Assembly (NCBI GenBank): GCA_009830035.1 | Contig: SZZY01000004.1 | Coordinates: 1-64,000 of the forward strand | Reading direction: 5' to 3' | Length of the DNA stretch: 64,000 nt | Source of the DNA: Pantoea sp. Eser | GTDB taxonomy: Bacteria > Pseudomonadota > Gammaproteobacteria > Enterobacterales > Enterobacteriaceae | Part shown: positions 3,397 to 41,681 of the stretch, one piece after another | How the letters are laid out: the number at the start of each line of letters is the position of its first letter | Numbering within the stretch: position 1 is the first letter of the stretch | Position numbers and translations under genes: made by a program | The notes under the pieces: model-generated | Seen by the model: only the letters and a program-made list of their open reading frames with translations | What the model was told of the DNA's origin: nothing | Databases searched by the model: none

Positions 3397-5331
3397 TTGA
3401 GTGACATGGCGAAAAACCTGATTCTCTGGTTAGTCATCGCGGTCGTGCTGATGTCAGTATTCCAGAGCTTTGGGCCCAGCGAGTCGAATGGCCGTAGGGT
3501 TGATTATTCAACCTTCCTGTCGGAAGTGAACCAGAATCAGGTCCGCGAGGCCCGTATTAACGGGCGTGAAATTAACATTATTAAAAAAGATAGCAATAAA
3601 TACACTACCTACATTCCTGTCAATGATCCCAAGTTGCTCGATAACCTCTTGACCAAAAACGTCAAAGTGGTTGGCGAACCACCGGAAGAGCCAAGCCTGC
3701 TGGCGTCGATCTTCATTTCGTGGTTCCCGATGCTGCTGCTGATAGGGGTGTGGATATTCTTTATGCGCCAGATGCAGGGCGGCGGCAAGGGCGCGATGTC
3801 CTTCGGCAAGAGTAAGGCCCGCATGCTGACCGAAGACCAGATTAAAACCACCTTCGCCGACGTTGCTGGCTGTGACGAAGCGAAAGAGGAAGTCGCCGAG
3901 CTGGTGGAATATCTGCGTGAGCCGAGCCGCTTCCAGAAGCTGGGCGGTAAGATTCCGAAAGGTGTACTGATGGTTGGTCCTCCGGGTACCGGTAAAACTT
4001 TGCTGGCGAAAGCGATTGCCGGTGAAGCGAAAGTGCCTTTCTTTACCATCTCCGGTTCTGACTTCGTTGAAATGTTTGTCGGTGTCGGTGCATCTCGTGT
4101 GCGCGACATGTTCGAGCAGGCCAAAAAAGCGGCACCGTGCATCATCTTCATCGATGAAATCGATGCGGTGGGCCGTCAGCGTGGCGCTGGTTTAGGCGGT
4201 GGTCATGATGAACGTGAGCAGACCCTGAACCAGATGCTGGTTGAGATGGATGGTTTCGAAGGTAACGAAGGTATTATCGTTATCGCCGCAACTAACCGTC
4301 CTGACGTGCTTGACCCGGCACTGCTGCGTCCAGGCCGCTTCGACCGTCAGGTGGTGGTGGGCTTGCCAGACGTGCGTGGCCGTGAGCAGATTCTGAAAGT
4401 GCATATGCGCCGTGTTCCGCTGGCGACCGATATTGACGCGGCAATCATTGCGCGCGGTACGCCTGGCTTCTCCGGTGCCGACCTAGCCAACCTTGTCAAC
4501 GAAGCGGCATTGTTTGCTGCCCGTTCGAACAAGCGCGTAGTGTCGATGGTTGAGTTTGAGAAAGCGAAAGACAAAATCATGATGGGTGCAGAACGTCGCT
4601 CCATGGTGATGACGGAAGCGCAGAAAGAGTCAACCGCGTATCACGAAGCGGGTCACGCGATCATTGGTCGTCTGGTCCCTGAGCACGATCCGGTGCACAA
4701 AGTGACCATCATTCCACGCGGCCGTGCGCTGGGTGTGACCTTCTTCCTGCCTGAAGGCGACGCGATCAGCGCCAGCCGTCAGAAACTGGAAAGCCAGATT
4801 TCGACGCTGTACGGCGGTCGTCTGGCAGAAGAGATCATCTACGGTGCTGAACATGTTTCTACCGGTGCGTCGAATGACATTAAAGTCGCGACCAACCTAG
4901 CACGTAACATGGTGACGCAATGGGGCTTCTCAGAAAAACTGGGTCCACTGCTGTATGCCGAAGAAGAGGGTGAAGTGTTCCTCGGACGTTCAGTCGCGAA
5001 AGCGAAACATATGTCCGATGAAACAGCACGCATTATCGACCAGGAAGTTAAGCACCTGATCGACAGCAACTACCAGCGTGCTCGCCGCATTCTGGGTGAG
5101 AACATGGACATCCTTCACGCGATGAAAGACGCGCTGATGAAGTATGAAACCATCGATGCACCGCAGATCGACGACCTGATGGCGCGCCGCGAAGTGCGTC
5201 CGCCAGCGAGCTGGGAAGACCCAGGCAGCAGCAACTCTGACAGCAACGGCACGCCAAAGACGCCGCGTCCGGTCGATGAACCGCGTCCGCCAAACCCAGG
5301 CAACACCATGTCAGAACAGTTTGATAAATAA
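3397..5331 (+). CDS. ftsH: ATP-dependent zinc metalloprotease FtsH
   Basis: Inner-membrane AAA+ protease, a hexamer that degrades LpxC, sigma-32 and unassembled membrane proteins. 644 residues. TM1 spans about residues 7-25 and TM2 about 100-120, flanking a periplasmic domain. The AAA module has Walker A GPPGTGKT, Walker [34 protein letters not shown] and the pore loop [11 protein letters not shown]. The peptidase domain has the zinc motif HEAGH. The TTG at 3397 (MSDMAKN) is chosen because an AGGTT element sits about ten bases upstream; ATG at 3406 (MAKN) is the alternative. Intact, as expected for an essential gene. Confidence 0.97.
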
Positions 5332-31390: not shown

Positions 31391-33461
31391 TTGACTCTAC
31401 AAGGATGCCCGCCAATATGGTTACGCCGTTCTCTGATTGCTGGTTGTAGTGCAATAAGTTGCGTTATGAGTGTGGCGCTGGTCTCTCCGGCGCTGGCTGA
31501 AAAGCTCCCCTTAATGCCCTGGCCGCAACGGGTTGAGCAGAGCCAGCGGCGGGGCGCTGAACCTGACGCCGCAGCTGACACTGCAGATTAGCGGCGATCA
31601 TCTGGCGGGGGCCGAGGCGTGCTGGCTGGAACGCATCGCTAATCAGACCGGCTGGCCACTGTTGCCCGCCAGTCAGCCGGTGGCGCAGCCGACCATTCAC
31701 ATCGTGATTGATAAAGCGGTCGATCCGCTGCCGCTGCCCGACAGTGATGAACGTTATCACCTGCAAATAGACAGCAGCGGCCGTGCTGCTCAGCGCCCCC
31801 AGCCGGTTTGGCGCAATGCTCGGCATGGAAACCCTGCTGCAGCTGATTCAGAGCGGCGATCGGGGCACCACGCTGCCTTATGTGACCATTGATGACCAGC
31901 CGCGATTCCCCTGGCGCGGGATACTGATCGACAGCGCGCGTCATTTTATGCCGATTGAAACCCTCAGGCGGCAAATTGATGGCATCGCCGCCGCCCGGAT
32001 GAACGTCTTTCACTGGCATCTGACCGACGATCAGGGCTGGCGCTTCGCTTCCAGCCATTATCCTCAGCTCCAGCAGAAAGCCAGCGATGGCCGCTATTAC
32101 AGTCAGCAACAGATGCGTGAACTGGTGCAGTATGCCGCCGATCGCGGCGTGCGGGTGGTGCCTGAGCTGGATCTGCCGGGTCCCTATCAGATGGAGCGCG
32201 GCTGGGGAGTGTTTAAACTGCTGTTGGATCCCAGCAATGAGCAGGTCTATCAGGTGATCGACACCCTGGTCGGCGAAATGGCGGCGATCTTTCCCGATCC
32301 GTGGCTGCATATTGGCGGCGATGAGGTCGATCCGACCCAGTGGAACCAGTCCCCCGCACATCCAGCAATTTATGCGCGATCGAGGGCTGAAAGATGCTCA
32401 CGCTTTGCAGGCCTGTTTCAACCAGCGGGTTGAGAAGATCCTTGAGAAGCACCAGCGTCAGATGATCGGCTGGGATGAGATCGCCCATCCCGATCTACCG
32501 CGCAGTATTCTGATCCAGTCGTGGCAGGGCCAGGATGCGCTGAGCGAGGTTGCCAAAGAGAACATGCGCGGCATTCTTTCCACCGGCTTCTATCTCGATC
32601 AGCCGCAGCCCGCCAGCTATCACTACCGCAACGAAATCTATCCGCAGGGACTTAACGGCCAGGATAAGCTGCAGCCGCAGACACTGACACTCAGCGGCTA
32701 TGTGCGGGTGGGGAACGTGCGTTATCCGGTCAGTGGCAAAAAGCTGGCGCAGGCACCGGCCGGGATTGCACCCACGCTGCCGACACCGCAGCAGATGCAG
32801 CAAAATCTGCTGGGCGGTGAGGCGGCGCTGTGGGCCGAAAATATCAACAGCCAGATTATCGATACCAAACTGTGGCCGCGCGCCTTTGTGGTCGCCGAAC
32901 GTTTGTGGTCCGCTCAGGACGTTACCGATAGCGATGATATGTATCAGCGGCTGGCCAACCGCAGTGATATCGCGCCTCTGCAAGTACTGGCCGAGGTGCT
33001 GGAACCGGCGCAGTACTACACCCGTTAGCACCTGAAGTTTCAGGCTGGCCATTATGATTACCATGAGCCGTTAAACCGGCTGGTGGATGTGCTGCCCGCC
33101 GAGATTGAGGCGGCGCGTCAGCTGGAACATCAGGTCGCTGCGCTGATCGCCAACCGCACCGATCCGACGGCGGCAGCGGCGATTCAACATCAGCTCCAGC
33201 GCTGGCAGACTAATACCGCGCAGGTGATGCCGCTGCTCAACGCCAACTATCTGCTGAAGCCGTTGGCAGCCAGTGCACAACAGGTGGACGCATTGAGCCG
33301 GATGGGGATTTTGCTGGTGAATGCCTGGGCCCGCAACCAGGCCTTTGGGGCCAGCGAAGTGGCGCAGATACGCCACGCTGGACGCGGCGGCAGAAGTGCA
33401 GGATGAAACGGTGATTGCGCTGGTCAGGCCGCTGGAAACGCTGCTGCGCGCCTTTAAGTAG
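31391..33461 (+). pseudogene. Beta-N-acetylhexosaminidase (GH20), multiply broken
   Basis: Exported glycosidase that removes terminal GlcNAc from chitin or peptidoglycan oligomers. Signal-peptide-like start (AISCVMSVALVSPALAEK), then the GH20 barrel: RFPWRGILIDSARHF, NVFHWHLTDDQGWR, the catalytic Asp-Glu pair in HIGGDEVDP, and LGGEAALWAE. Frame changes near 31550, 31785, 32380 and 33370. TAG at 33026-33028 falls where Gln is expected (YYTR-stop-HLKFQ). About 17 residues are missing in frame at DLPG-PYQMERGWG (32171-32185), where the family has sequence between two PG motifs. The true start codon is unclear. Non-functional. Confidence 0.88.
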
Positions 33462-33491
33462 TCGGGCGCGGCCTGAACCGGCCGCGCACTA

Positions 33492-34496
33492 TTATGATGC
33501 CGGACCGCTGACCGAATGACGGCGCACCAGCGTCGGGCTGAACACGTGGGTTACTTCCGGCAGCGGCTGGTCGTTGGCCAGCGCCAGCGCCAGTTCGGCG
33601 GCCTGCTGCGCCATGGTAACGATCGGATAGCGGACGGTGGTAAGACGCGGCCGCACGTAGCGTGATACCAGCACATCGTCGAAACCAATCAGCGACATCT
33701 CTTCTGGCACCCGGACGCCGTTATCGCTCAGCACTGCCAGCGCGCCGGCGGCCATTGAGTCGTTGTAGCAGGCGACCGCGTTGAAATTTTTGCCGCGTCC
33801 CAGCAGTTCGGTCATCGCCGTTTCGCCGCCAACCTCATCCGGTTCACCCCAGGTTACCAGCCGATCGCTGCACGGCAGGCCGTGCTCTTTCAGCGCATCG
33901 TAGTAACCCTGCAGGCGATCTTCGGCATCGGAAATGGTGTGGGTCGAGCAGATAAAGGCGATATTCTGGTGACCCAGCTGGATCAGATGGCGGGTCGCCA
34001 GCCAGGCGCCGTAGCGATCGTCGAGCGCAATACAGCGCTTCTCGAAGCCTTTGATCAGCCGGTTAAGCAGCACCATACCCGGCACCTGTTTCATTAACTG
34101 TTCCAGTTCCGCATCCGAGATTTTTTTGGCGTGCACCACCAGCGCTGCGCAACGGTGGCGCATCAGTTGTTCAATCGCCTGCCGCTCTTTTTGCTCGTTG
34201 TGGTAACCGTTACCAATCAGCAAAAAGTTGCCGGTTTTTCCTGCGACTTCATCGACCGCTTTGACCATCGCGCCAAAAAACGGGTCCGAAACATCACCGA
34301 CAATCAGCCCGAGGGTTTCGGTCGACTGCTGCGCCAGCGCGCGCGCATTGGCGTTTGGGTGATACTGAAGTTGCTCCATCGCCTGCCCGACGGCCTGGCG
34401 CGAGCTGTCGCTGGCCTTGGAAGAATTATTGATTACACGGGAAACTGTGGCGACAGAAACGCCAGCCAGTCGGGCAACATCCTTTATGGTAGCCAT
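33492..34496 (-). CDS. galR: Galactose operon repressor GalR
   Basis: LacI-family dimeric repressor that responds to D-galactose. 334 residues against 343 in E. coli. HTH at residues 1-25 (MATIKDVARLAGVSVATVSR), hinge helix with NANARALA, and a periplasmic-binding-protein-like sugar domain almost identical to E. coli GalR (SDPFFGAMVKAVDEVAGKTG, IALDDRYGAWLATRHLIQ, SPTLVRRHSVS). Closer to GalR than GalS. In E. coli galR lies beside lplT-aas; here the two are separated by two chimeric pseudogenes. Intact. Confidence 0.95.
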   Translation of the reverse strand: MATIKDVARLAGVSVATVSRVINNSSKASDSSRQAVGQAMEQLQYHPNANARALAQQSTETLGLIVGDVSDPFFGAMVKAVDEVAGKTGNFLLIGNGYHNEQKERQAIEQLMRHRCAALVVHAKKISDAELEQLMKQVPGMVLLNRLIKGFEKRCIALDDRYGAWLATRHLIQLGHQNIAFICSTHTISDAEDRLQGYYDALKEHGLPCSDRLVTWGEPDEVGGETAMTELLGRGKNFNAVACYNDSMAAGALAVLSDNGVRVPEEMSLIGFDDVLVSRYVRPRLTTVRYPIVTMAQQAAELALALANDQPLPEVTHVFSPTLVRRHSVSGPAS

Positions 34497-34688
34497 GCGT
34501 TTACCTGCTTCCGGGGAAAACGTTTACACATCGCATCAGTGTTACGGAAAAGGGCCGCCACATCAAGCCAGCAGAATGCCAGCGTCGTCGCAAAAGGCGG
34601 CGAAATCGGGCCGTCCGGCACGCCTTCTGCAGAAGCGGTACCCCATGCTATGCTGATTATCCCCAAATCTCTGCCGTGAAAAACAACG

Positions 34689-37626
34689 ATGAAAACCAAA
34701 GTGCCACACCTGGCGCACTGGGGCGCCTTCACCGCCGTCACTGAAAACGATCGCCTGATTGGCTGCGAGCCTTTTTTCGCTGATGCCGATCCGTCCCCGA
34801 TGATCAACACCATTCCTGAACTGGTCTACTCCGATAAGCGCATTCGCCAGCCGATGGTGCGTCGCTCGTGGCTGAAGTCACGCGAAAACAGCGATCGCAC
34901 GCTGCGGGGCCGGGAAGATTTTGTGGCGGTCGACTGGGACACCGCGCTTGACTTGGTGGCGAATGAAAACCGCCGTATCCGTGAGCGCTACGGCGCATCG
35001 GGCATTTTCAATGGCTCATACGGCTGGTCATCAGCCGGACGCGTTAAACATGCCCGTACCCTGATCCGCCGCTTCTACTTTCAGGGCGGTGGCGGCGTCG
35101 ACCAGCAGGGCAACTACAGCTGGGGCAATTTTTCCTGCCTTATGCCTTATGTGATAGGCACCTATATGCCGCTGACCGGTCGCGTCACCGACTGTCCGGT
35201 AGTGGTGGAACATGCGGAGATTTTTGTCGTCTTTGGAGGACTGGCGGTGAAGAACGCCCAGGTGGCGTCGGGCGGAGCCGGGCAGCACAGCCTGAAACCG
35301 GCGCTGCAGCAGCTGGCGGCCAAAGGCACACCGGTGATTAATATCAGCCCGATGCGCGATGATTGCCCGGCCTTCCTCAACGCCGAGTTGATCCCGATTC
35401 GCCCGAATACCGACGTGGCGCTGATGCTGGCGCTGGGTTATGAGATTACCCAGCGCGGCGCGGTGGACGAGGCGTTTCTCGCCAGCCACTGCACCGGCTG
35501 GCCGCAACTGCGTGCCTACCTGCTGGGCGAAGCGGGTGGCGTGGCGAAAACCGCCGGCTGGGCCAGCCACATCACCGGCATCCCGGCCGATCGCATCGTA
35601 CAACTGGCGCAGCAGCTGATCGGCAAACGCAGCTTTATCACCTGTTCCTATTCGGTTCAGCGCGCCCACCGCGGTGAGCAGCCGTACTGGATGATGATCG
35701 CCTTGTCATCAATGCTCGGTCAGCCAGGGCTGTCGGGCGCGGGCTTCTCCTTTTGGTCACGGGTCGATGAACAGCGTCGGCAATCCGCGCCAGGACGGTC
35801 CGGCACCGATGATGGGTACCGGACCCAACCCGTCTGGCCTGTCGATTCCGGTGGCGCGTATCAGCGATATGCTGCTCAATCCAGGCCAGCCCTACACCTT
35901 CCAGGGTGAGACGCTGCACTATCCTGACATCCATATGGTGCACTGGGCGGGCGGGAATCCATTCCATCACCATCACAGCTCAACCGGCTGGTGGCGGGCT
36001 GGCAGCGGCCTGACACTGTGGTGGTGCAGGACATTGTCTGGACCCCGGCGGCGCAGATGGCCTATATCGTGCTGCCCGCCACCACGACGCTGGAACGCAA
36101 TGACATTGACGGGTCGTCACGCGACCGCTTTGTGCTGGCGATGCATCAGGCGATCAAACCGCAACATCAGGCGCGCAACGACTTCGATATCTTTGCCGAT
36201 CTGGCGGAGCGTCTTGGCTACCACGACACCTTTACCGAAGGGCGCAACGAGATGCAGTGGATTGCACATCTCTACCAGCAGTGCGCAGTAGCGCACCAGC
36301 GCAAAGGCATCAGCTTCCCTGAGTTTGAGGCGTTCTGGCAGCGCGGCTTTGTTGAGATCCCCGAGGGCGGCAAACCTTACGTGTTTCATGGATGCTTTCC
36401 GCGCCGATCCGCAGGCCAATCCGATCAACACTGCCAGCGGCAAAATCGAACTGTTCAGCCAGACGATTGCCGACTACCAGCTTGACGATTTTGCCGGCCA
36501 TCCGGAGTGGCGTGAGCCGCAGGAGTGGCTGGGCGCGCCGATCAGCCGCGACTATCCGCTGCACATGATCTCGATCCAGCCTGCTGACCGGCTGCAAAGC
36601 CAGCTGGATGGCACCGACACCGTGCAGGGCAATAAAACCGCCGGTCACGAAACGCTGTATATGCATCCGCTGGATGCGGCGGCGCGTAACATCGTGGACG
36701 GTGACGAAATCGAGGTGAGCAACGCGCGCGGCGAAATTCTGGCGATGGCTTCCTATCCGTCGTTCAACCCGAATAACTACGATGGCGCCACGCCCGCCCA
36801 GATGCGTAACGCGGCGATAAACGACAGTTACGAACCCGGCTCGACGGTAAAGCCGCTGGTGGTGATGGAAGGGCTGGAGCGTCATCTGGTGCGGCCGGAC
36901 TCGGTGATTGATACCACGCCGTACCGGGTCAACGGCCACCTGATCCGCGACGTCGGCTACTGGCCGCGCCTGACCATGACCGGCATCCTGCAGAAGTCGA
37001 TTGACATGGGCGTTTCCCACATTGCGCTGGCGATGCCGGCTGAAGCGCTGGTGAATACCTACCATGCGTTTGGCCTTGGTAAACCGACCGGCCTGGGCTT
37101 AACTGGCGAGAGCGTCGGTTACTTCCCGCTGCATCGCACCCGCTGGGCGGACATCGAACGGGCGACCTTCTCGTTTGGTTACGGCATGCGCGTCACGCCG
37201 CTGCAGATTGCGCGTGAATACGCCACTCTCGGCTCTTACGGCGTCTACCGTCCGCTGTCGATTACCCGGGTCACCCCGCCGGTGCTGGGCAAGCAGGTGG
37301 CGAATCCGGAAACGGTGAAAGAGGTGGTACACATGCTGGAGAGCGACGTGTTGCCGGGCTATCGTCTGGCGACCAAAACCGGTACCGCCGAGAAGATGGG
37401 AAACAGCGGCAAATATGATGGCGGCTACGTCAACTATACCGTCGGTATCGCGCCCGCCAGTCATCCGGAAGTGGCGCTGGTGGTGATGATTAACCATCCG
37501 ACCGCCGGCGATCACTTTGGTGGTTCGGTGGCTGCGCCGGTATTCGGCAACATCATGGGGCCGGTACTGAAGCACATGAACATCGCGCCGGACGCCATTT
37601 ACAGCGCTACTGCGGCGAACAACTAA
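34689..37626 (+). pseudogene. Chimera: BisC-like molybdopterin oxidoreductase joined in frame to a PBP3 (FtsI-like) transpeptidase domain
   Basis: 5' part (34689 to about 36738) is a DMSO-reductase-family enzyme closest to BisC/TorZ: HLAHWGAFTAVTEN, FNGSYGWSSAGRVKHA (Mo-ligand Ser region), TASGKIELFSQTIADY. It is broken by three one-base changes: extra T at about 35753, missing C at about 35976, extra T at about 36383. Within NARGEILA the frame passes without a break into MASYPSFNPNNYDGATP, the start of an FtsI transpeptidase domain. That domain has the SxxK serine (GSTVKPL), KTGTAEKMG and the end of an FtsI-like protein; the SxN motif reads SID. The roughly 100 C-terminal BisC residues, everything between, and the roughly 230 N-terminal PBP residues (membrane anchor included) are gone. 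The shared GEILA coding suggests deletion at microhomology. Confidence 0.9.
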
Positions 37627-38101
37627 GATAAATCTTATAAAAATCAGAGTGTAAGTGCGGCGAGGCAGATATTCACACCTCGTTGCATTCCCCCGAATTC
37701 GGTTGCTTTTCCCTCTGTTGCGGCGGCACAAAACAGTGCGAGGATAGAGGTCCCAGAGGTATTGATGGGTGTGAAAACAACACCGCTTCGGCAGTGATTA
37801 CCCTGTTATTGCACCAACCCACGCAGATGCGTGGGTTTTTTTTGCCTGCGACAGGCAGCGCGCCGCCCGCATTTTTCCCGCCTGAGCGTGCCGTCAACAT
37901 CATCATTGTTCTTAACGAAACCCTTACCGTTTGCCGACAGAACGGCACGTAGCATTTCACCGATAATGCCCGCCGTTAAGCCCCTGCTGGTGGTTTTCAT
38001 GCTGGCGAATTCGCGGCAGCGCCATCAGCCACTGCAGGTGGCTCACTTCATATTCCGCACCCGCCGGGATGTTCTTTTCTGTTTATCTAAAGAGTTCGAT
38101 G
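37627..38101. other. Intergenic stretch with one strong terminator, no supported gene
   Basis: 475 bases between two chimeric pseudogenes. It holds a strong terminator (37816-37843) preceded by a short inverted repeat (GGTGT / ACACC at about 37768-37785). Minus-strand reading gives only short unrecognised pieces (for example around 37900-38070) that could be gene debris. No start with a ribosome-binding site was seen. Confidence 0.5.
37816..37843 (+). terminator. Rho-independent terminator, possibly of a small RNA or a lost gene
   Basis: AACCCACGC / GCGTGGGTT stem with a four-base loop and a run of eight T. No intact coding gene ends just before it; the nearest is the PBP3 fragment stop at 37624-37626. 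Confidence 0.8.
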
Positions 38102-39445
38102 ATGACTCACCACTCGCGCTCCGCGCGTTCCGGCTGGCTGAAATGGCTGCTTTTATTGATTGTGGCGGCGACGATCGCTGGCGTGGCCTGGCGTCTGTTG
38201 CCAATCGGCAAAGCACCGGGCGGGGCGATGCCGCCAGACGGACGCGGTGCGCCCGGCAGGATCGGCGGCGGCGCGACGCGCGCCGATGTGCCGGTCTGGC
38301 TGAATGCGCTCAGCATGGTGATCCCTAACGCCAGCGTGACGGTCACCAGCCGGGTCGATGGTCAGCTGCAGCAGGTGTTCTTCACCGAAGGGCAGGAGGT
38401 CAGCGCCGGCCAGCTGCTGGCGCAGATCGATCCGCGCAGCTACCAGGCGACGCTCAATCAGTATCAGGGCGAACTCAATCAGAACTAGGTACTGCTGAAA
38501 AACGCCGAACTGACGCTGGCACGCTACCGCAAGCTGGCGGCGCAGGACTCGCTGTCGCGCCAGCATCTGGATAGCCAGATCGCCACGGTAGGGCAGTATC
38601 GCGGTGCGGTGGCCGCCGATCAGGCGCAGATCGCCAGCGCCAGACTGAGTATCGAATACGCCCGCATCACCGCGCCGATCGGTAGCCGGGTCGGGCTGCG
38701 CCAGGTCGATCCGGGCAACATGGTCTAGGCCTCCAGCAGCACCGGCCTGGTGACCATCACCCAGATGTAGCCGGCGGCGGTCACCTTTAGCGTGCCGCAG
38801 AGCGAAATCCCGACGCTGGTGAGCGCCCTGCATCAGGGCCAGAGCCTGCCTGCGGCGCCGCTGCACGCCATGCTGCCCACGGTGCCGGTCGGGCTGCCGA
38901 GCCAGCTGTTACAGCGCCGTCCCGATATCGCCTATGCCAAACGTAACATGGCGGCCGCTAACGCCGCGGTTGGCGTGGCGGTGGCCGGTTACTACCCGGA
39001 TCTCACCTTCAGCGCCAGCGGCGGCGTCAGTTCATCGGCGCTGCATTCGCTGTTCTCATTGCCCAACCGCGCCTGGTCGCTGGGGCCGGAGCTAAGCGGC
39101 ACGCTGCTTGGCTTTGGCGCCACCTCGGCGCAGGTCGATCAGGCTCGCGCCAGCTATCGTCAGACGGTATTAGCAGCGTTGCAGGAGGTGGAAGATCAGC
39201 TGGTGGAACTCAACACCCTGCGGGGCGAGATTGCCGCCCAGCAGCGCGCGGCCGTGGCGGCTCAGACCTCGGCGCAGGTGACGCGCAATCAGTATGAGGC
39301 CGGGATGATCGACTATCTCGACGTGGCGACTACCGAAAACAGCAGCCTGAGCGAACGACGGAGTTTACTGACGCTGCAAAGCAGTCAGTGGGTCAGCAGC
39401 GTGGCGCTGATTGCTGCGCTGGGCGGAGGCTGGCAGACACCCTGA
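38102..39445 (+). pseudogene. Chimera: MdtA-like periplasmic adaptor joined in frame to an outer-membrane efflux factor (NodT/OprM type)
   Basis: 5' part encodes an RND membrane-fusion protein like MdtA: N-terminal anchor (KWLLLLIVAATIAGVAWRLL), VTVTSRVDGQLQQVFFTEGQ and the ARITAPIGSRVGLRQVDPGN lipoyl-domain region. Three TAG codons interrupt it in frame (38486, 38726, 38768), two of them where Gln is likely. Near 38845-38860 the same frame passes from the adaptor (VSALHQGQSLP) into an outer-membrane factor (LPTVPVGLPSQLLQRRPDIA through NQYEAGMIDYLDVATTENS to WQTP). The second half of the adaptor, the pump genes normally downstream (mdtB/mdtC type) and the first half of the outer-membrane factor are missing; by family sizes that is several kilobases. 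No efflux pump can be made. Confidence 0.88.
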
Positions 39446-39526: not shown

Positions 39527-41681
39527 ATGGTATTCACATTATTGCGTCTGGTATTCCGCCTGTTATGGCGGGTTGAACTGCGCGGCGACGTTGCCGAACT
39601 GCATAAGCAGAAGGTATTGATCACGCCGAACCATATGTCGTTTCTCGACGGCGTATTGCTGGCGTTATTTTTGCCGATTAAGCCAGTCTACGCGGTCTAT
39701 TCAACCATCAGCGAAAGCTGGTTTATGCGGCTGGTTAAACCGTTTATCGACTGTGTGCCGCTCGATCCCACTAAGCCGATGGCGCTGAAACAGCTGGTGC
39801 GGCTGATCGACAGCGGTCGTCCGGTGGTGATCTTCCCGGAAGGACGGATCACCGTTACCGGATCGCTGATGAAAATCTACAGCGGGGCCGGTTTTGTCGC
39901 GGCGCGATCCGGCGCTAACGTAGTGCCGATGCGGATTGAAGGGGCGGAGTTAACGCCGTTTGGCCGGCTGGCGGGCGTATTCAAACGCCGTCTGTTTCCG
40001 CGCATCACCCTCAGCATTCTGCCGGCGACCCGCACCCCGATGCCGGAAGCGAAACGCGCCCGCGATCGGCGGATACTGGCGGGCGAACATCTGCATCATG
40101 TGATGATGGAAGCCCGTATGGCGGTACGCCCGCGTGAAACTCTGTTTGAAGCCTTTCTCGCGGCCCGTTCACGCTACGGCGCTTTCAAGCGCTGCATCGA
40201 AGATGTCAATTTCAAGCCCGACAGCTATAACGGCCTGCTGAAAAAATCGCTCGGCGTCGGCCGTATTCTTGAACGCTACAGCCAGCCGCGCGAAGTGGTC
40301 GGGCTGCTGCTGCCGAACACCACCGTCACCGCGGCGGCGATTTTCGGTGCCTCGCTGCGTGGCCGGGTTCCGGCGATGCTCAACTACACCGCGGGCGTCA
40401 ACGGCATGCGGACGGCCCTGACCGTGGCGCAGATTAAAACCGTCTTCACCTCGCGTCAGTTCCTCGACAAAGGTAATTTGTGGCATCTGCCGCAGGGACT
40501 CGACGAGGTGCAGTGGATCTACTTGGAAGATCTGAAAGATACGGTGACGCTACAGGACAAACTGTGGATTGTCGGCCATTTGCTGATGCCACATCGCGCC
40601 CAGCTGCCCCAGCAGCCGGAAGATGCGGCGATGGTGCTGTTCACCTCCGACTCGGAAGGCAACCCCAAAGGGGTGGTGCATTCGCATAAAAGCCTGCTGG
40701 CGAACGTCGAACAGCTTCGCACCGTGGCCGACTTTACCCCGCGTGACCGCTTTATGTCGGCGCTGCCGCTGTTCCACGCCTTTGGTCTGACCGTCGGCCT
40801 GTTTACGCCGCTGATGACCGGCGCGCAGGTGTTCCTCTATCCCAGCCCGCTGCACTACCGCATCGTGCCAGAACTGGTCTATGACCGGAACTGCACCGTG
40901 CTGTTTGGCACCTCGACCTTCCTCGGCAACTATGCCCGCTTTGCTGCCCCTTACGACTTTGGCCGCCTGCGCTATGTGGTGGCCGGGGCCGAGAAGCTGC
41001 AGGAAAACCCCCGCCAGCTCTACATGGAAAATATGGCATTCGCATCCTTGAAGGGTATGGGGTAACCGAATGCGCGCCGGTGGTGGCGATTAACGTGCCG
41101 ATGGCGGCGAAGGCGCACACCGTGGGACGGATTCTGCCGGGGATGGATTCGCGACTGATTCGGTGCCGGGCATTGAGCAGGGCGGACGGCTGCAGTTGCG
41201 CGGCCCGAACGTGATGAAAGGCTATCTGCGGGTTGAGAATCCAGGCGTGATGGAAGTGCCGGTCGCCGACGATGGCGAAGGCAAAGGCAATCAGGAAGCG
41301 GGCTGGTATGACACCGGCGATATCGTCAGCTTTGATGAAGGCGGTTTCTGCCAGATTCAGGGACGCGCCAAACGCTTCGCCAAGATTGCTGGCGAGATGG
41401 TGTCGCTGGAAATTGTTGAGCAGATCGAGCTGAAAGCATCACCGGACAAACAACATGCCGCGTCACTGCGGCCGGATGGTCAGCGCGGCGAGGCGCTGGT
41501 GCTGTTTACCACCGACAGCGAACTGGCGCGTGACGGCGTACAAAAAGCCGCCCGTGAGCTGGGCGCGCCGGAGCTGGCGTTGCCGCGTGATATCCGGGTG
41601 ATGAAGCAGTTGCCACAGCTCGGCAGCGGCAAGCCGGATTACGTGACGCTGAAAAAACTGGCTGAAGAGGAGCAGGCATGA
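39527..41681 (+). pseudogene. aas: Bifunctional 2-acyl-GPE acyltransferase / acyl-ACP synthetase Aas, frameshifted
   Basis: Inner-membrane enzyme that re-acylates lysophosphatidylethanolamine. About 718 codons, the family length. The N-terminal PlsC-like acyltransferase has NHMSFLDG (HX4D) and [11 protein letters not shown]. The AMP-forming domain has [20 protein letters not shown], in which the first Gly of the usual TSGSEG loop is Asp. Two one-base losses shift the frame: an A missing at about 41029 (before the expected [16 protein letters not shown]) and a C missing at about 41160 (LIPVPGI expected). The end ([20 protein letters not shown]) is normal. AAGGAG precedes the start; the end overlaps lplT by ATGA. 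Confidence 0.9.

Follow-up and report, generated by a model that had tools for sequence, protein, structure and literature searches.

Organisation of the locus

A single open reading frame of 433 codons on a Pantoea contig joins part of a BisC-like reductase, without a change of frame, to the transpeptidase domain of a paralogue of FtsI. The frame appears in the list of ORFs of the window, a term used here for the whole stretch of 64,000 nucleotides that was analysed (positions 1-64000 of a 345-kb contig, in a genome of 3,926,470 bases and 30 contigs). The coordinates of the frame and of the associated features are collected in Table 1. The second ftsI gene, which encodes the FtsI paralogue, is referred to as ftsI2, a label coined in the current analysis.

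Table 1. Features of the bisC-ftsI2 locus and a second chimeric joint in the same window
Feature	Position	Strand	Remarks
Remnant of bisC with five indels, comprising roughly codons 1-680 of 757	34689..36728	+	
bisC stretch with net frame changes near 35750, 35975 and 36386	35751..36387	+	
Chimeric open frame, 433 codons	36325..37626	+	TTG start; no convincing ribosome-binding site
Joint	36729..36733	+	5-bp exact identity of both parents, inside a 15-bp near-repeat
ftsI2 remnant with only the transpeptidase domain, starting near codon 268 of 575 and reaching the native stop	36734..37626	+	
SxxK motif GSTVKPL, kept	36838..36858	+	
Ile codon of the SXN/D motif, where all 82 paralogue rows have Ser	37000..37002	+	Alignment
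8-bp repeat, present twice in P. brenneri and once here	37352..37359	+	30 bp lost across it
Second in-frame chimera, MdtA-like adaptor::outer-membrane efflux protein	38843..38854	+	Deletion of about 7.5 kb

Pfam assigns a partial Molydop_binding domain to residues 79-142 of the ORF and a Transpeptidase domain to residues 132-411 (E-value 4.2e-69). In a search of solved structures the chains closest to the second part of the ORF are those of FtsI (8gpw, E-value 3e-112, residues 123-425), and residues 124-425 share a sequence identity of 60% with the main FtsI of the same genome. The ORF and its domain assignments agree with the original prediction of one 433-codon frame that passes from a BisC-like into an FtsI-like protein with no stop at the joint. 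The codons at 36325-36386, which lie ahead of the last frameshift of bisC, do not encode BisC sequence.

Three of the five indels in the bisC remnant give a net frame change, matching the three upstream frameshifts that had been predicted, and a compensating pair of 7-base changes is located near 35125-35142. Read from its native start (34689), bisC stays open only as far as 35909; its sequence is kept to about codon 681, and about 76 C-terminal codons have been lost. The parental family is that of the BisC S/N-oxide reductases (TIGR00509), with which the intact bisC product of P. conspicua aligns over nearly its full length with 936.4 bits, a score that falls below the family cut-off of 1017.55. 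The window copy has neither a continuous frame nor a complete Molydop_binding domain, being frameshifted and deprived of the end of that domain.

The bacterium is probably a gut symbiont of stink bugs that is losing genes, and it fits the Euschistus servus symbiont SoEus as described in excerpts of PMC8032781. Of the 52 reference ORFs of P. agglomerans HJS002 that span the window, 29 remain intact, 21 are broken and 2 are missing. The broken genes are concentrated in the central part of the window (20600-52000), with long and mostly intact runs on either side. At 38069-39445 an MdtA-like adaptor with three in-frame TAG stops is fused, with the frame kept, to the last part of an outer-membrane efflux protein (OEP), and the deletion at this joint has removed two large ORFs in between, presumably the pump. 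A family-20 hexosaminidase gene (31391-33458) carries frameshifts and in-frame deletions of 51, 228 and 78 bp relative to HJS002, and a gene for an acyl-ACP-phospholipid acyltransferase/ligase (39527-41678) is split in pieces by frame changes.

Parental genes in related genomes and the deletion between them

In P. conspicua a bisC gene of 757 codons is followed, 280 bp downstream, by an intact ftsI2 gene of 575 codons. bisC is found upstream of ftsI2 in 47 of the 55 named loci that carry ftsI2, as one continuous match in 45 and broken in 2. The remaining 8 loci, some of which have short flanks, show no bisC match (7 loci) or a 21% match only (one locus). The two broken loci are those of Candidatus Pantoea persica and of the type-B symbiont of Plautia stali, both of which are called obligate stink-bug symbionts in excerpts of PMC10720322. 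A single uninterrupted match to the ftsI2 fragment of the window is present in 55 of 59 other genomes of the genus, and the paralogue is broken in these two named symbionts and in the window genome. Among the four exceptions, G014 and G041, which fit the type-B symbiont and P. persica, hold broken pieces of ftsI2; G052 is a genome of 1.4 Mb that is also without a bisC match; and in G008 the bisC match is too near the contig end for ftsI2 to fit on that contig. In P. brenneri LMG 5343 the bisC match is continuous and yet contains an internal stop (L036:5772), and the same contig carries a split hexosaminidase gene (L036:316-2727).

The window is without 1314 bp between bisC and ftsI2 when compared with P. 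brenneri, P. agglomerans HJS002 and a third relative (G057); against the five further relatives among the eight compared, the missing length is 1309, 1311, 1315, 1316 and 1437 bp. P. brenneri is the nearest of the eight (95.7% DNA identity over 33400-36743) and also provides the best match of the ftsI2 fragment in another genome of the genus sample. The alignment with P. brenneri has colinear flanks on both sides and one single gap of 1314 bp. The proposal that the chimera was born by deletion is borne out by this gap and by the parents lying apart in relatives; the search for a separate bisC and a second ftsI-like gene, and for the missing distance between them, had been suggested together with that proposal.

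In P. brenneri the two parents are alike at 12 of the 15 positions of the near-repeat at the joint. The original prediction had placed a GEILA/GEVLA-like sequence in both parents at this site. Short homology is indeed present at the joint, but GEILA belongs to ftsI2 only, the BisC proteins of the relatives having a related but different sequence there. A pattern of 42 bases spanning the joint, searched with up to 3 mismatches, is found in only one of 61 genomes of the genus, its own; the same arrangement as an ordinary gene of relatives, which had been named beforehand as contrary evidence, was not seen in the other 60.

State of the transpeptidase fragment

The motifs of class B penicillin binding proteins (PBPs) are kept in part. 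SxxK (GSTVKPL) and KTGT, both of which had been reported as retained, are present in the alignment, and the fragment has no stop and no frameshift inside it. The accompanying view of this part as undamaged, with no lesion over about 295 residues, is contradicted by two changes. Just before KTG, 30 bp are gone at 37351/37352 relative to P. brenneri and P. conspicua, and the 10 codons removed are present in the main FtsI and in all 82 paralogue rows kept in the alignment (the broken symbiont rows L124 and L125 were dropped, and strains from two collections are included, so that these are not 82 species). The second motif, in which the serine has been changed, reads SID in the window; the 82 rows have SSD here and the main FtsI has SSN. 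Five residues are unique to the window among the paralogue rows, the central one of the second motif included. With each of the 83 rows left out in turn, the window and one other row have 3 private residues each, six rows have 1 or 2 and 75 have none, a count that is weak because many rows represent one strain from two collections, which hides private states.

The membrane anchor and the PBP_dimer domain (PF03717) of the P. conspicua ftsI2 product are not found in the chimeric ORF, and the best 19-residue mean of hydrophobicity in the first 60 residues is 0.59 for the ORF against 2.33 for P. conspicua ftsI2. With the NF011685 model (cut-off 737 bits) the ORF scores 414.9 and the intact ftsI2 685.3, also below the cut-off, while the intact main FtsI of 589 amino acids, encoded on the contig of the window, scores 1244.5. 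The ORF shares with FtsI (PBP3, NF011685/PF00905) the transpeptidase domain and differs from it in the absence of the anchor, the dimer domain and the 10 codons; its annotation as a penicillin binding protein would mislead.

The changes in the PBP fragment (N:S) are 5:10 on the window branch and 0:12 on the P. brenneri branch (Fisher p 0.047). The corresponding numbers are 4:9 and 0:8 for the intact neighbour galR, 16:27 and 4:16 for the broken bisC, and 2:17 and 1:20 for the main ftsI. As far as these substitutions indicate, the branch test leans to relaxed constraint on the PBP fragment, with no separation from the intact neighbour. The crude N/S rate ratios of the PBP fragment (0.17), galR (0.15) and bisC (0.18) are all far below 1, and they mark neither life nor death of a gene, since the intact galR and the broken bisC score alike.

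Codon-phased repeats and the frame of deletions

Exact direct repeats that lie 20-10000 bp apart on the same coding strand were counted in the 52 HJS002 ORFs over the window span. Between genes, the two copies share the same codon phase in 201830 of 373930 repeats of at least 5 bp, in 7804 of 10931 of at least 8 bp and in 953 of 1184 of at least 10 bp, and within genes in 1682 of 2212 of at least 8 bp. For exact repeats between genes, taken from at least 5 to at least 11 bp, 54-84% of the joins are predicted to be in frame. Repeat guidance together with codon phase predicts an in-frame joint, and no particular cause has to be sought for the open frame at the joint because between-gene repeats are mostly codon-phased.

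Deletions of at least 20 bp were collected along the 345.5-kb contig (345,508 bases), of which the alignment chain against HJS002 covers 301,872 bases. The census gave 58 deletions, and 45 were polarised by a second relative (G046), in which 70% or more of the lost segment is present. The 13 dropped as unpolarised comprise 8 in frame, 3 out of frame and 2 that are not in same-strand coding sequence. A further 6 polarised deletions were left out as non-coding or situated between opposite strands, and 39 coding deletions remain. The mdtA::OEP join was missed by the alignment chain and was added by hand.

The frame is kept in 30 of the 39 deletions (p 3.1e-8 against one third), which divide into 26 of 33 within one gene and 4 of 6 joining two genes (p 0.1). 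In genes that carry a further frameshift the proportion is 19 of 26, a count of other lesions that alignment artefacts may inflate. All 8 deletions with an exact repeat of at least 7 bp are in frame. Exact repeats do not explain everything, because 22 of the 31 deletions with shorter ones keep the frame as well. The in-frame excess could be raised further by selection acting on the frame of genes that were still working. Titles and abstract openings of the papers listed revealed nothing on whether repeat-guided deletions in the pseudogenes of bacteria favour the reading frame, which is not proof that such a bias is unpublished.

We consider it an even question whether genome reduction in GC-rich bacteria is, through codon-phased repeats, a biased maker of in-frame chimeras, with most repeat-guided deletions, two-gene joins included, keeping the frame, so that open and gene-like fusions would accumulate and a few may be translated. 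If this is true, decaying symbiont genomes fill with misleadingly gene-like open fusions. Codon-phased repeats make in-frame joins common, so a frame that stays open over a deletion joint says little for function, a point relevant to pseudogene calling and to the notion that fusion gives rise to new genes in reducing genomes.

Origin of the chimeric frame

The ORF is best explained as a fused pseudogene made by deletion in a reducing genome, a reading to which we assign a probability of about 94%. The parents are separate genes in relatives, a single deletion at a short repeat separates the window from them, and other disabling lesions are present; a functional fusion would be an arrangement kept in relatives, and this join is confined to its own genome among the 61. 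The proposed course of events starts from early-stage genome reduction in Pantoea, in which bisC and its downstream neighbour ftsI2 would have been decaying. The 1314-bp deletion, probably guided by the short codon-phased near-repeat, would have taken out the last part of bisC together with the intergenic gap and the first 267 or so codons of ftsI2. Since most short repeats between coding sequences are codon-phased here, the frame would have been kept at the joint, as it was in most deletions of the contig, and a further 30-bp deletion across the 8-bp repeat would have removed the 10 codons before KTG. The structure, the sizes, the codon-phase statistics and the lack of this join in the other genomes searched are direct results; we infer the order of these events and the part of repeats as the cause of the deletions, and likewise that no working protein is made. 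Dead-gene debris had been held the most likely nature of the locus from the beginning, and the further lesions, the lost anchor and dimer domain and the intact main ftsI strengthen that view; as debris, the bisC-ftsI2 locus itself matters little.

A misjoining of two real and separate genes by the assembler would produce a similar frame, and its probability is very slight. An assembly chimera at the joint is unlikely because the flanks on both sides are colinear with relatives inside the 345-kb contig, the exactly shared sequence measures just 5 bp, and the genome does not contain the lost ends at another place. An exact identity of 5 bp is generally too short for an assembler misjoin. The best matches in the genome are the main ftsI (41%) for the lost first 267 residues of ftsI2 and a BisC paralogue on contig C23 (49%) for the lost last 76 residues of BisC. 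Many similar deletions are, in addition, present on the contig. A natural fusion gene common to a lineage is suggested by the type-B symbiont of Plautia stali, which too has a bisC::ftsI2 joint that is in frame, with nine shared bases (L125:3867-3877) and 1303 bp missing relative to P. latae. In the coordinates of the P. latae locus (L043) the ends of the type-B join fall near 4937 and 6240 and those of the window join near 5049 and 6358. These endpoints are 112 and 118 bp apart, and neither join derives from the other because each keeps sequence that the other has lost. The type-B bisC and ftsI2 carry further frameshifts and stops, and the join of the window was not found, at up to 3 mismatches, in the 60 other genomes. 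A lineage fusion has therefore next to no likelihood, and the comparison of endpoints argues that the bisC-ftsI2 pair has been joined twice independently.

It is improbable, for several reasons, that translation of the chimera, or of a 303-residue piece from GTG 36715, yields a soluble transpeptidase-domain protein in the cytoplasm that has some effect, such as the binding of beta-lactams or partners. The open frame, the retained SxxK and KTG and the low crude N/S ratio are consistent with such a product, and junction peptides of deletion fusions have been reported in M. tuberculosis, so that fusions of this kind can be translated (excerpts of PMC7671302). Of the eleven in-frame starts scored for ribosome binding between 36325 and SxxK, only GTG 36715 is preceded by a strong ribosome-binding-like sequence (-9.8 kcal/mol). 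This score is reached by 0.9% of 4000 random 20-mers, which over eleven starts amounts to about one chance in ten, and 15 of the 20 bases of the stretch are seen unchanged in P. brenneri bisC. The score is moreover a weak guide, because the native starts of bisC and of P. brenneri ftsI2 reach only -2.4 and -3.3 (other native starts, -6.2 and -8.3). The loss of the 10 conserved codons, the changed second motif, the missing anchor and dimer domain, the intact main ftsI in the same genome and the early end of the native-start bisC frame all stand against a functional product; having no hydrophobic anchor, a soluble product would not reach the periplasmic substrate. A separate doubt concerns the cause of the open frame only. 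The frame at the joint may be a one-in-three accident and the excess on the contig the outcome of purifying selection on still-working genes, an account that we consider possible though rather doubtful. The within-gene deletions (26 of 33), the persistence of the excess without long exact repeats and the two-gene joins, which are not significantly off one third, are compatible with it. Selection is hard to argue for the 19 of 26 in-frame deletions in already frameshifted genes and for the 4 of 6 two-gene joins, and repeats alone predict a majority of in-frame joins between genes.

Similarity to known systems

The fusion genes of M. tuberculosis described in excerpts of PMC7671302 resemble the chimera in that a deletion joins two same-strand genes, in one case with an in-frame breakpoint. 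Their junction peptides were detected by mass spectrometry; in the window, both partners of the fusion are otherwise damaged.

PBP3SAL is an acid-active second PBP3 of Salmonella. Excerpts of PMC5736910 give its motif as SXN/D, place its gene between rrmA and cspC and state that non-pathogens have no orthologues of it. The parent ftsI2 is similarly a second FtsI paralogue with an SXD-type motif (SSD), a likeness in description that holds for the intact parent only. ftsI2 adjoins bisC, and the window copy is broken.

FtsI-like PBPs have also been identified beside LAP beta-lactamase genes on a plasmid and a chromosome of E. coli (L134:4204-5934 and L135:4204-5934). The E. coli PBP of L134, a distant one, has an SSD motif and is 58% identical to ftsI2, among the best five of 5409 records in the DNA search.
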